Below are positions 6,489-63,244 of a stretch of 64,000 nt of DNA, one piece after another. The stretch comes from Halococcus salsus (GTDB taxonomy: Archaea; Halobacteriota; Halobacteria; Halobacteriales; Halococcaceae): assembly GCF_009900715.1 (NCBI RefSeq), contig NZ_JAAAJC010000001.1, positions 733,216-797,215 of the forward strand, read 5' to 3'. The notes under the pieces are model-generated. The model did not search any database. It saw only the letters and a list, made by a program, of their open reading frames with translations, and was not told where the DNA came from. The translations under genes and the position numbers were made by a program. Numbering within the stretch: position 1 is the first letter of the stretch; every line of letters begins with the position of its first letter.

Positions 6489-7343
6489 ATGACCGAACCC
6501 GAGGGTTCGCGAGCCCGGCGCGACCCCGACGCGTTGCTGGCGCGGGCGGGCGTTCGCGGCGACCGGAACCAGGACCAGCACTTTCTCGTCGACGACCGGG
6601 TGCTCGACCGGCTCCCCGAGTACGCAACCGAGTTCGACACGACCCACGTCCTCGAGGTCGGGGCGGGCACCGGTGGGCTGACCGACCGACTGCTCGCCGA
6701 CGCCGAGCACGTGACCGCCGTCGAGCGGGACGTCCGCCTCGTCGAGTTCCTCCGCGAGGAGTTCGCGGGGGCGGTCGACGCCGGGCGGCTCGACGTGGTC
6801 GCCGGCGACGCGCTCGACGTCGACCTGCCCGAGTTCTCCGTCTCGGTCTCGAACCTCCCCTACGGGAGTTCAAGCGAGCTCTTGTTCCGCCTCCTGCCGC
6901 GAGAGCGCCCGCTGGTGGTGATGGTGCAGGCGGAGTTCGCCGAGCGGATGGTCGCCGAGCCGGGAACCTCGGAATACGGCCGGCTGTCGGTGACGGCGGG
7001 TCACTACGCCGACGCCGAGATCGTCGAGCGCGTCCCGCGCGAGGCGTTCTCGCCCCCGCCCGCCGTCGAGAGCGCGGTGGTACGGACCACGCCACGCGAA
7101 CCCGACTACGAGGTCCCCGAGGACGCCTTCTTCGCGTTCGTCCGCGGGGTGTTCACCCAGCGTCGGAAGACGATGCGCAACGCGATCCGCAACACCACCC
7201 ACATCACCGGTATCGACGACGCGGCGGCCGTCGTCGCGGCCGCGGACGACGACCTGCTCGGGAGCCGCGCGGGCGAGCTCCGTCCCCACGAGTTCGCCGC
7301 GCTCACGACCCTCGCGATCGAGGACGGAGGGCTCACGGTGTGA
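6489..7343 (+). CDS. rsmA: 16S rRNA dimethyladenosine transferase
   Basis: 284 aa from ATG 6489. It contains NQDQHFLVDD (27-36), the SAM motif I EVGAGTGGLT (56-65), the acidic motif II VERD (78-81) and the catalytic NLPY (122-125). RsmA/KsgA/Dim1 dimethylates the two adjacent adenosines near the 3' end of 16S rRNA. The C-terminal domain has the family-typical FTQRRKTMRN. Longer in-frame upstream extension to 6351 is unlikely because it runs into the divergent promoter region of the phosphorylase gene. Confidence 0.96.
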   Translation: MTEPEGSRARRDPDALLARAGVRGDRNQDQHFLVDDRVLDRLPEYATEFDTTHVLEVGAGTGGLTDRLLADAEHVTAVERDVRLVEFLREEFAGAVDAGRLDVVAGDALDVDLPEFSVSVSNLPYGSSSELLFRLLPRERPLVVMVQAEFAERMVAEPGTSEYGRLSVTAGHYADAEIVERVPREAFSPPPAVESAVVRTTPREPDYEVPEDAFFAFVRGVFTQRRKTMRNAIRNTTHITGIDDAAAVVAAADDDLLGSRAGELRPHEFAALTTLAIEDGGLTV

Positions 7344-44792: not shown

Positions 44793-44873
44793 GGGTTCGT
44801 TTCGTCGAGCGAGCGACCGAATCCGATGAGTCGTCTTAGTTTTGGATTGAACCCTCGTGAATTTGAACCCTTG

Positions 44874-45126
44874 GGCCGGCGCGCGCTCGTCGCCCGTGTG
44901 CGAACGATAGTGAGCACCGGGCGCGAACCGGCGTGCGAGGGATGAGCACCGTGGTTCGAGAGAGCTTCGCTCTCTCGTCATCACGAAACGGCGAAGCCGT
45001 TTCGAACGACAGAGAGGGAGCGGAGTCGTTCGAGACGGCGAAGCCGTCTCGTGATGACGAAAGACGCTTCGCGTCTTTCGAACCACGAGCGATCGAGGAG
45101 CGCAATCGGCTGGGGAGGCTCGTGGC
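44874..45126. repeat. Dispersed intergenic repeat, family X copy 3 (reverse)
   Basis: Reversed relative to copies 1 and 2. It contains GCGCGCGCTCGTC near 44878-44891, GTGCGAGGGATGAGCACC (44933-44950) and, after an inserted hairpin block, AATCGGCTGGGGAGGCTCG (from 45104, block to 45126). Its middle is occupied by the inverted pair of hairpin units (44951-45086). Together with the family Y stem-loop (45213-45287) it fills the 497-base gap between 44792 and 45290. Confidence 0.75.
44951..45086. repeat. Inverted pair of double-hairpin units (family U)
   Basis: Two 60-62 bp units face each other, 44951-45010 and 45025-45086, with 14 bases between. Each has three constant linkers, GTCGTTCG / CGTGATGACG / CGAACCAC (reversed in the left unit), and two hairpins with different stems: GAGAGAGC-TTC, GAAACGGC-GAA, GAGACGGC-GAA and GAAAGACGC-TTC, each followed by its exact complement. 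All four stems are perfect. A third unit is at 62904-62965. Confidence 0.85.
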
Positions 45127-45212
45127 CGTGGCGGAGCGGTTGGCGGTGTGTAGCGGTTGCGGGAGTGGTTAGTAGTTGTACCGCGAGCGAGCCGACGGTG
45201 AGCGAGCGGCCC

Positions 45213-45287
45213 TTTTTAGTCCAGGTTTTTGCGCGGGGGTTGAGCGCGAGCGGAGCGAGCGCGATGCCCCCGTGGAAAAAAGTGGGT
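45213..45287. repeat. Stem-loop repeat, family Y copy 2 / possible tfb terminator
   Basis: Left arm TTTTTAGTCCAGGTTTTTGC (45213-45232, identical to copy 1), then CGGGGG; right arm CCCCCGTGGAAAAAAGTGGG up to 45286. It ends three bases before the TAA of the minus-strand tfb gene. In tfb orientation this gives CCACTTTTTTCC directly after the stop codon, so this copy could terminate tfb transcription, although copy 1 is not placed downstream of any gene. Confidence 0.75.
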
Positions 45288-45289
45288 GG

Positions 45290-46255
45290 TTAGCTGTGGA
45301 TGCCCATCGCCTCGATCTGCTCTTGGTACCGGTTCCGGATGGTGACCTCGGTCACCTGCGCGACGTCGGCGACCTCGCGCTGGGTCTTCTTCTCGTTGCA
45401 GAGCAGCGAGGCGGCGTAGATGGCGGCGGCGGCGTACCCAGTGGGAGATTTCCCCGAGAGCAGGCCCTTCTCGGCGGTGGTCTCGATGATGTCGTTGGCC
45501 TTCGATTGGACCTCCTCCGAGAGGGTGAGTTCCGAGCAGAAACGGGGGACGTACTTCTTGGGATCGACGGGTCGCATCTCGAGCGCGAGCTCCTGGGAGA
45601 CGTAGCGATACGTCCGACCGATCTCCTTGCGTTCGACACGGGAGACCTCGGAGATCTCTTCGAGCGAGCGCGGGATGCCCTCCTTCCGGCAGGCGGCGTA
45701 GAGCGCCGAGGTGGCGACGCCCTCGATCGAGCGCCCGCGGATGAGGTCCTCGGCGAGCGAGCGGCGGTAGATCACCGAGGCGACCTCGCGAACGGAGCGG
45801 GGAACCCCGAGCGCGGACGCCATCCGGTCGATCTCCGAGAGGGCGAACTGGAGGTTACGTTCGCCGGCGTCCTTCGTCCGGATCCGTTCCTGCCACTTCC
45901 GGAGGCGGTGCATCTGGGAGCGCTTTTTCGAGGAGATCGAACGACCGTAGGCGTCCTTGTCCTTCCAGTCGATGGTCGTCGTCAGCCCCTTGTCGTGCAT
46001 CGTCTGGGTTGTCGGCGCACCCACACGGCTCTTCTGCTGGCGTTCGGCGTGGTTGAACGCCCGCCATTCCGGACCGGGGTCGATGTTCTCCTCTTCGACA
46101 ACGAGTCCACAGTCCTCACAGATGAGCTCGCCCCGGTCCGCGCTCTTGACCAGGTTCTCGGACTCACACTCCGGACACCCCCGCACGCCCTCTCGTTCGT
46201 CGTCTTCGGTTTCGGTCTCGGCCTGCCGCTCCCGCTGACGAGTGGACCGTGTCAT
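45290..46255 (-). CDS. tfb: Transcription initiation factor TFB
   Basis: 321 aa. The zinc ribbon has C27, C30, C46 and C49 (GCPECES ... [10 protein letters not shown]). The B-finger linker follows ([12 protein letters not shown]), then two cyclin-like repeats (from about 125 and 220), the second with [46 protein letters not shown] recruits RNA polymerase to TBP-bound promoters. Haloarchaea encode several TFBs with different target sets; which this is cannot be told. Its own TATA box is at 46283-46291 and the message is nearly leaderless. Confidence 0.97.
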
Positions 46256-61745: not shown

Positions 61746-62888
61746 ATGGCCGCCATCGCTGACCGAACGGATCCCGTCAGAACGTGGCTCGCGGCGGCGG
61801 TCGTCGGCGTGGTGGCCATCGCGGGCGCGTCGGTCGCGTTCCCGAAAGCCGTCTACACGAACTTCGTCTGGCGGTACTTCTGGGGTCCCATCGACGCCGA
61901 CGCCCACAACGCGGTCTGTGCGATCCGGGCGAACGGGATGGTCGAGCGGCTCGGGACCGCGGACGCCTGCCAGGTCGCGGTCAGTCGGGGGTTCACCGTC
62001 GCCGAACCCGGCTACACCTTCGTCTCGGAGGCCGGCTACGCGCTCGTCCTCCTGTTCATGCTCGCCGGGGTGCTCCTGCTCGTGCGCCGGCTCGGCATCG
62101 GCACCGACCGACGGGTCGTGTTCGCGCTGATCCCGTTCGTCCTCTTCGGCGGCGCGCTCCGAACCGTCGAGGACGCCGCCGACGTCGTGCCCGCGAGCGT
62201 GGCCACCGGGATCGACTACCCCGCCAGCGCCCTGATCATCAGCCCGGTGATCTACGTCACCGTCTTCCTCGTCACCCTCGTCGCGCTGCTCGTCAGTCTC
62301 TGGCTCGCGCGCCGCGGCATCGTCGGGCGGTACGAGGACGCGCTCGCGGGCTTCGGGACCCTCGCGCTCGCGGTCACCGTCGGCTATCTCGGCTACCTCG
62401 CGGCGACGACCGAGTACCTGGGCTTCTACCCCCAGATGCTGGTCGCGACCATCGGGATCGCCTCGGCCATCGCCGTTGGGGTCTACCTCGCCATCGACCG
62501 CCTCGCGCCCGCGCTCAACGCCGGCACGGGCACCATCGGCCTCGCGATCCTCTGGGCCCAGGGCATCGACGGCGTCGCGAACGTCATCGCCTCCGACTGG
62601 TGGAACGCCATCGGCCTCCCGTTCGAGTACACCGCGAAACACCCCGTGAACGAACTCATCGTGGGCTTCACCGAACTCGTCGTTCCCCACTCCGTCATCC
62701 TGGTCATCGGCGACTCCTGGCCGTTCCTCGTCGTGAAGATCGCACTCTCGGTCGGCGTGATCTGGCTGTTCGAGGAGTCCATCTTCGAGGACAGCCCGCG
62801 CTACGCCTACCTCCTGATGCTCGCCATCATCGTCGTCGGGCTCGGACCCGGGACGAGAGATATGCTCCGGGCGACCTTTGGGATCTAG
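61746..62888 (+). CDS. DUF63 family membrane protein
   Basis: 380 aa with about eight to ten hydrophobic helices. The periplasm-facing loop YTNFVWRYFWGPIDADAHNA (about 34-53) and FGGALRTVEDA (about 137-147) are the conserved DUF63 blocks; late NVIASDWWNAIGLPFEYTAKHPVNE is also typical. The family is archaeal, multi-pass and of unknown function. The gene begins about 100 bases after the second tRNA-linked hairpin. It may be transcribed alone. Confidence 0.88.
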   Translation: MAAIADRTDPVRTWLAAAVVGVVAIAGASVAFPKAVYTNFVWRYFWGPIDADAHNAVCAIRANGMVERLGTADACQVAVSRGFTVAEPGYTFVSEAGYALVLLFMLAGVLLLVRRLGIGTDRRVVFALIPFVLFGGALRTVEDAADVVPASVATGIDYPASALIISPVIYVTVFLVTLVALLVSLWLARRGIVGRYEDALAGFGTLALAVTVGYLGYLAATTEYLGFYPQMLVATIGIASAIAVGVYLAIDRLAPALNAGTGTIGLAILWAQGIDGVANVIASDWWNAIGLPFEYTAKHPVNELIVGFTELVVPHSVILVIGDSWPFLVVKIALSVGVIWLFEESIFEDSPRYAYLLMLAIIVVGLGPGTRDMLRATFGI

Positions 62889-62903
62889 AACCCACCTTTT
62901 GCT

Positions 62904-62965
62904 GTCGTTCGGAAGGCGCTTTGCGCCTTCCGTGATGACGAGACGGCTTCGCCGTCTCGAACCAC
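62904..62965. repeat. Double-hairpin unit (family U), third copy
   Basis: GTCGTTCG (62904-62911), hairpin GGAAGGCGC-TTT-GCGCCTTCC, CGTGATGACG, hairpin GAGACGGC-TTC-GCCGTCTC, CGAACCAC (62958-62965). The three linkers are identical to those at 45025-45086, and the total length is the same (62), while the first stem is different but still perfect. It begins 15 bases after the DUF63 stop. Confidence 0.85.
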
Positions 62966-63244
62966 GGTCGCTCGCTTCGCTCGCTCCCTGGCAAAATGTG
63001 GATCAAAAGCCTGCGTCACCCCCTCCGCTTCGCTCCGGGGGCTCCTTGGCCCGCTCGCTCACTTCGTTCGCTCGTGGTGCAACCACTAATCACTGCCACA
63101 ACCGCACAGCACCGCCGAAGCCCTCGGGCCTACGGCCCTCGCCCTTCATCCGCCAGGAGAGCACCACAACCGCCCCGCGGCCGCGCCGCCAGCGCCGCCG
63201 CGCCGCGACCGCTGACCGCACCGCAGCCGGCGCACGGCCGAGTG
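62966..63244. repeat. Gap with family Z copy 2 and other palindromes
   Basis: About 280 bases without a gene. CACCGCCGAAGCCCTCGGG (63110-63128) and CGCCCTTCATCCGCCAGGAG with AGCACC (63140-63165) repeat the blocks found at 41692-41803. CGCTCGCTTCGCTCGC (62969-62984) and CTCGCTCACTTCGTTCGCTC near 63055 are palindromes of the TTC-loop kind. CACTAATCACTGCCACAACC near 63084 resembles the minus-strand sequence at 45147-45177 beside family Y copy 2. Confidence 0.65.

Follow-up and report, generated by a model that had tools for sequence, protein, structure and literature searches.

The window, by which we mean the whole 64,000-nucleotide stretch of Halococcus salsus DNA analysed here, includes a transcription factor B gene (TFIIB, PF00382; positions 45290–46255, minus strand) and a gene for a DUF63 membrane protein (61746–62888, plus strand). 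Adjoining the former lies an inverted pair of short units, each built of two hairpins: unit 1 at 44951–45010 (minus strand, 60 nt) and unit 2 at 45025–45086 (plus strand, 62 nt). A third unit stands at 62904–62965 (plus strand, 62 nt), with the DUF63 gene immediately ahead of it. The coordinates and lengths given in a first-pass annotation based on the letters alone are exact on re-reading of the sequence. The hairpins had been called perfect, and all six are indeed fully paired, with single-stranded DNA folding at z values of -4.8 to -6.4 and even the best shuffle folding worse; the linkers GTCGTTCG, CGTGATGACG and CGAACCAC, described as constant, are identical in the three units.

Read on the plus strand, unit 1 comprises GTGGTT (44951–44956), a hairpin (44957–44977), TCATCA (44978–44983), a second hairpin (44984–45004) and AACGAC (45005–45010); its inserted part is 44952–45009, the outer G and C belonging to the target. 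Unit 2 runs from GTCGTT (45025–45030) through hairpin 1 (45031–45051, stem CGAGACGGC), TGATGA (45052–45057) and hairpin 2 (45058–45080, stem CGAAAGACGC) to AACCAC (45081–45086), with 45026–45085 as the inserted part. The same order is found in unit 3, namely GTCGTT (62904–62909), hairpin 1 (62910–62932), TGATGA (62933–62938), hairpin 2 (62939–62959) and AACCAC (62960–62965).

All three units are embedded in larger repeats. A long repeat lying between genes (44860–45260, GTGCGAGGGATGAGCACC..GAGGAGCGCAGTCGG..) hosts the 45-kb pair; partial matches to it are numerous in 10 of 10 genomes of the genus, and the 14-nt spacer between units 1 and 2 (45011–45024, AGAGAGGGAGCGGA) is part of it. In a syntenic relative (contig G007:C24) the alignment extends to 44951 and resumes at 45089 with 13 nt in between, both units being absent and the spacer being replaced in the alignment by a different sequence. 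What had been described as one large nested palindrome consists of two units that inserted separately, facing opposite ways and with 14 nt between them. Unit 3 is carried by a palindromic repeat, CCACCTTTTGCTG^C..hairpin..CTGGCAAAATGTGG (62890–63001, plus strand), that also holds a twin-hairpin unit at locus L009 and in genome G002 (L206, L210); in the syntenic region of the relative, G007:C25, this host repeat is occupied by different hairpin inserts.

Architecture and stem covariation

The general layout of the element is T-CGTT[hp1]TGATGA[hp2]AACC-A, 58–66 bp long, the body consisting of the two hairpins (hp1 and hp2) and the ends TCGTT and AACCA being complementary at four of five positions. 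In the 3.52-Mb genome a gapped pattern of the three linkers has 11 matches and its reversed control none, so that the matches are not due to chance. A covariance model trained on 43 sequences recovers the same 11 genome copies together with five variants.

The first-pass annotation had claimed that stems change while pairing is kept, and the larger sample bears this out. In a set of 43 different units of 60 nt, pairing holds in 98.6% of the cells and there are 132 double-sided stem changes, compared to 44.6 in shuffles (0 of 500 as high); the covariation score reaches 0.471, where shuffles give 0.182, again with 0 of 500 as high, and falls to 0.125 or less when partner columns are slid by one to three positions. 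Across 160 units, free stem positions are Watson-Crick paired in 97.3% of cases, versus 73.8% after arms of different hairpins have been exchanged. The further claim that the stems simply differ holds for their upper part. The foot of the 5' arm is fixed as CG followed by purine, purine, A (CG-RRA) in 311–319 of 320 hairpins per position, and hence true variability is confined to the upper stem. As a side observation on the same 160 units, the loops are mostly GAA/TTC or GGA/TCC within GC closing pairs, a type that is abundant in haloarchaeal palindromes. The sequence GCGNAGC forms an unusually stable DNA mini-hairpin.

Such covariation could in principle arise if the unit were transcribed and acted as a regulator, terminator or stabiliser, with selection on the RNA keeping the stems paired. 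Beyond the strength of the covariation, this explanation can draw on a very stable predicted RNA fold (z -6.1) in which the 5' linker pairs with the central linker. However, GAA/TTC and GGA/TCC loops occur in near-equal numbers, with 153 purine-rich and 133 pyrimidine-rich orientations; G.T mismatches are in no clear excess over A.C (25 vs 14, p = 0.11); Rfam returns zero matches at the gathering or E-value threshold; and the units occupy mobile positions, often within transposons, tnpB genes and other repeats. We therefore consider a structured RNA very unlikely. The first-pass annotation had left the choice between selection on structure, in RNA or single-stranded DNA, and a mobile hairpin element; the RNA part of that proposal is not supported, and the mobile part is supported by empty sites, by insertions in IS605 ends and tnpB, and by the wide spread of the family. 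The upkeep of pairing could reflect either selection for transposition or DNA-level repair of the folded strand.

No unit carries two like hairpins. Identical hairpin arms within one unit were found in 0 of 152 cases against 12.2 expected (0 of 2000 shuffles), and six or seven of seven arm positions match in six units where 27 are expected, even though identical stems occur at both the hp1 and the hp2 positions across units. Solo hairpins are nearly absent, with three instances versus 285 twins in 146 genomes, so that the single hairpin was rejected as the basic unit; all three are chimeric, with mismatched arms, as expected from hp1–hp2 deletion. Together, the near-absence of solo forms and the lack of pairs of like hairpins indicate that the twin is the unit and that two like hairpins are not tolerated.

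Distribution, insertion sites and hosts

The first-pass annotation had proposed searching this genome and other haloarchaea with the linkers and a covariance model. Besides the copies in H. salsus given above, the strict pattern yields 285 copies, spread over 83 of the 146 genomes examined from the order and 40 of 56 genera, with a maximum of 28 per genome. In a phylum-wide draw, 17 of 24 genomes of the order were positive and none of the 124 genomes from outside the order carried the strict pattern. A scan of named genomes gave at least 120 stretches, with haloarchaeal titles throughout among the matches listed, and the unit is also present on haloarchaeal megaplasmids. The viral contigs of IMG/VR contain no sequence that matches the pattern exactly, and an origin from viruses was accordingly rejected. 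Haloquadratum-type genomes contain numerous variants of the unit; at eight such loci (L265–L269, L271, L272, L302) a near-palindromic version, GTCGTCCG..CGTGATCACG..CGAACGAC, recurs in a similar sequence stretch.

Comparison of orthologous sites supports the identification of the unit as a mobile element with clean insertion. The copy at G000:C7:78675 (L011) has a counterpart region, G007:C8, with 92% identity across 8.6 kb, from which precisely TCGTTCG..CGAACCA is missing, the empty site being a G^C within the perfect hairpin CGGAAGACGCGAAG^CGTCTTCCG. Likewise, the IS605-type palindrome CCTCGGGGCTTGACCCCGAGG is empty at two loci (L087, L104) and occupied elsewhere at the same G^C. No target duplication or loss was seen at the orthologous empty sites. 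Units also lie within or beside genes: one copy (L147) lies in frame inside tnpB (PF07282), five others (L290, L294, L298–L300) lie inside tnpB as judged by the surrounding sequence, the insertions within tnpB including several in one genome (G147), and the copy at L237 borders the end of a gene annotated as TnpB. That the host itself keeps the units as protein-binding or transcription-termination sites at many loci is a reading to which their palindromic form and the many copies outside genes might lend themselves, but presence or absence at orthologous positions of close relatives, and insertion into open reading frames and IS ends, make it highly implausible.

Insertion takes place after a G and usually before a C. 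The flank consensus for 138 de-duplicated strict sites is C(75%) G(85%) N N G^C G(72%), in which the outer G and C are fixed by the search pattern. A relaxed search of 41 genomes gave 20 further copies, with the 5' G retained in 18 of 20 and a 3' base that is mostly T or A rather than C. Of 199 sites, 182 have C as the 3' base, 14 have T and 3 have A, and G occupies position -4 in 87%, the middle two positions of GNNG^ being free. Sites within hairpins of at least 8 bp are enriched (6.5% vs 1.2% for shuffled flanks). In IS605-type palindromes the orientation is the same in all de-duplicated cases (16 vs 0), which, since these hosts are partly related, represent fewer than 16 independent events; a single orientation is what a single-strand mechanism predicts. 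Many copies reside in hosts other than IS605-type palindromes.

Not every copy stems from a jump of its own. Within G002, one host repeat carries seven near-identical unit copies, and within G148 a short IS605-type palindrome with a unit inside (a composite of a PATE and a unit) recurs at sites with different flanks, from which it follows that the unit also multiplies by riding along as a passenger; several multi-copy sets reflect host repeats bearing the unit, not new jumps. Taken to its limit, this observation would make the unit an ancient insertion in repeats and PATEs that is now copied only along with them, its pairing being kept by repair of folded DNA. The G002 and G148 sets agree with such a history, as does the one confirmed shared site, L008 (L326) and G007:C13, where the orthologues differ by one loop change with the stems unchanged and thus without compensatory change, so that stem change goes unseen at such short distance. 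Against it, the unit alone is present or absent at orthologous sites of close relatives, and many unrelated hosts obey the same junction rule; purely passive copying therefore appears unlikely.

The units serve as hosts in turn. At seven loci (L147, L055, L119, L181, L224, L239, L241) the TGATGA linker holds another, nested twin-hairpin element. A second family, TGG[hairpin]TGCAA[hairpin]AA with its relatives, occupies the same spot in the central linker (L147:1751–1870, L055 at about 7050–7160, L119, L181). A third, TCGTC[AAAAGAGT..]GGACCTC[GCGGAGC..]TCAG, is nested in the linker at L239, L241 and L224, the first two of which are in the H. salsus genome itself (C2:442087 and C5:107951); L006 has the same host without that insert. 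A further family, with linker GAGCCAAT (..TTCACGAGAGC..GTGAGCCAATCAGAACGC..GATGACGAC), likewise shows changing stems (L063, L105, L166, G007:C25), and related linkers occur at L240, L242 and L243. When about 1.1 Mb of loci were scanned de novo, the TGATGA-linker family appeared 129 times, these loci having been fetched with it, along with several twin-hairpin families with other linkers. The class is thus larger than the TGATGA-linker family.

Mechanism of movement and relation to known elements

On the basis of these data, we put at roughly 60% the probability that the unit is non-autonomous and depends for its movement on a putative trans-acting enzyme that works on single-stranded DNA and recognises the shape of the hairpins. 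Such an enzyme, supplied in trans, would read both hairpins mainly by their shape, in addition to the CG-RRA foot and the linkers, and would move one DNA strand; the upper stems could then drift as long as they remain paired. The two hairpins may correspond to a left end and a right end joined back to back, and they would have to differ from each other to avoid mispairing or deletion. A Y1/HUH-like strand-specific transposase is our best guess, although a standard Y1 TnpA is not supported. More tentatively, and with less than even confidence, the families with different linkers might form a haloarchaea-wide superfamily of self-nesting twin hairpins that move as folded single-stranded DNA by means of an undiscovered transposase reading shape plus a short foot and requiring unlike hairpins.

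A narrower version of the single-strand mechanism would see the unit as a true IS200/IS605 derivative, a PATE reduced to its termini and moved by the classical TnpA. Its hairpin-hairpin layout with constant bases 5' of each hairpin, the lack of target duplication, the one-strand orientation and the frequency of IS605 targets all suit this origin. Yet the Y1 TnpA domain (PF01797) is not associated with the presence of units (49/34/28/35 genomes, p = 0.095), for which reason the Y1 transposase was rejected as the mobiliser; mean copy numbers are 1.9 with the domain and 2.0 without it, and genomes with 28, 17, 12 and 10 copies lack it, the 28-copy genome being only 77% complete. No complementarity between guide and cut site was apparent by inspection (CGTT/ATGA vs GNNG^ and CCA^; rule from PMC8266576), and the target 5' of the left end looks more like a loose GNNG^ than a fixed tetra- or pentanucleotide. 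Furthermore, 1.34 Mb of scanned loci contained no autonomous version with separated ends around tnpA/tnpB or another gene; the half-units found there are chance matches to coding sequence, units altered by mutation, or units that carry a nested twin hairpin. A derivative of this kind is accordingly quite unlikely.

Several known systems resemble the unit in part, and in its workings it is best read as similar to a REPIN or a minimal IS200/IS605 element, the closest relatives being the small mobile repeats of Haloquadratum. The latter (SMR-A, HqIRS42/43/55), described from Haloquadratum walsbyi, are about 110 bp long, homogeneous within each type and have prominent terminal repeats, and their mobilisation was called enigmatic in 2011 (PMC3119063). 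Both groups are haloarchaeal, of non-coding length, with inverted ends, no target duplication and no identified mobiliser, and both insert in near-terminal palindromes of IS605-type elements and PATEs, as in the 16 de-duplicated cases here; 58–66 bp, two hairpins and variable stems set the unit apart from the small mobile repeats as these are reported (PMC3119063). Some small mobile repeats may nevertheless be identical with the twin-hairpin family. The gapped pattern gave one irrelevant match in 17 genomes of the genus Haloquadratum, and self-comparison of 400 kb from one such genome revealed no 110-bp family. The first-pass annotation had known of no named haloarchaeal element with this layout. 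This stands for the twin-hairpin family in the literature searched, which left subscription journals mostly outside and held no description of it, and must be qualified by the existence of the similar Haloquadratum repeats (PMC3119063). Searches of the literature with the linker strings gave matches unrelated to archaea, among the matches listed.

REPINs, or REP doublets, have conserved halves inverted to each other and a RAYT gene in the genome (PMC3116915, PMC8266576). The unit shares with them a replicative unit of two hairpin-forming parts, defunct singles, a non-autonomous character and a single-stranded DNA model (PMC3116915, PMC8266576), but its stems vary and the Y1 enzyme does not track its copies; the GTAG tag of REPINs and BIMEs is not found in its constant parts. 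The CGTC-tagged REPs are bacterial, with a single-hairpin unit, four families and fairly conserved stems (PMC3733652). Short hairpins, a CCA-type tail and the lack of a dedicated transposase are common to both, and the preference for heterodimers in some CGTC-tagged families recalls the unlike hairpins of the twin element, whereas the linkers are not shared (PMC3733652). PATEs and IS200/IS605 ends are also haloarchaeal, with near-terminal hairpins and no target duplication, but possess their own terminal sequences and targeting oligonucleotides and serve the twin-hairpin element as targets (PMC3119063). The constant bases 5' of each hairpin, with a cut 5' of the left part and 3' of the right part, match what would be expected of IS200/IS605 ends, organised as described (PMC8266576), if these were joined back to back. 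The absence of target duplication at orthologous empty sites distinguishes the unit from a classical MITE.

The twin-hairpin unit is thus a real, widespread and precisely bounded mobile element of the small-mobile-repeat/REPIN kind. The family supplies exact ends, an exact insertion site, a structural model and a required pairing of two unlike hairpins, and some genomes have copies while others have none, so that the enzyme can be sought in a concrete way. More than 150 distinct copies with matched stem changes and fixed joints also make it a clean natural case of a pattern that an RNA-family search would wrongly report as a non-coding RNA.
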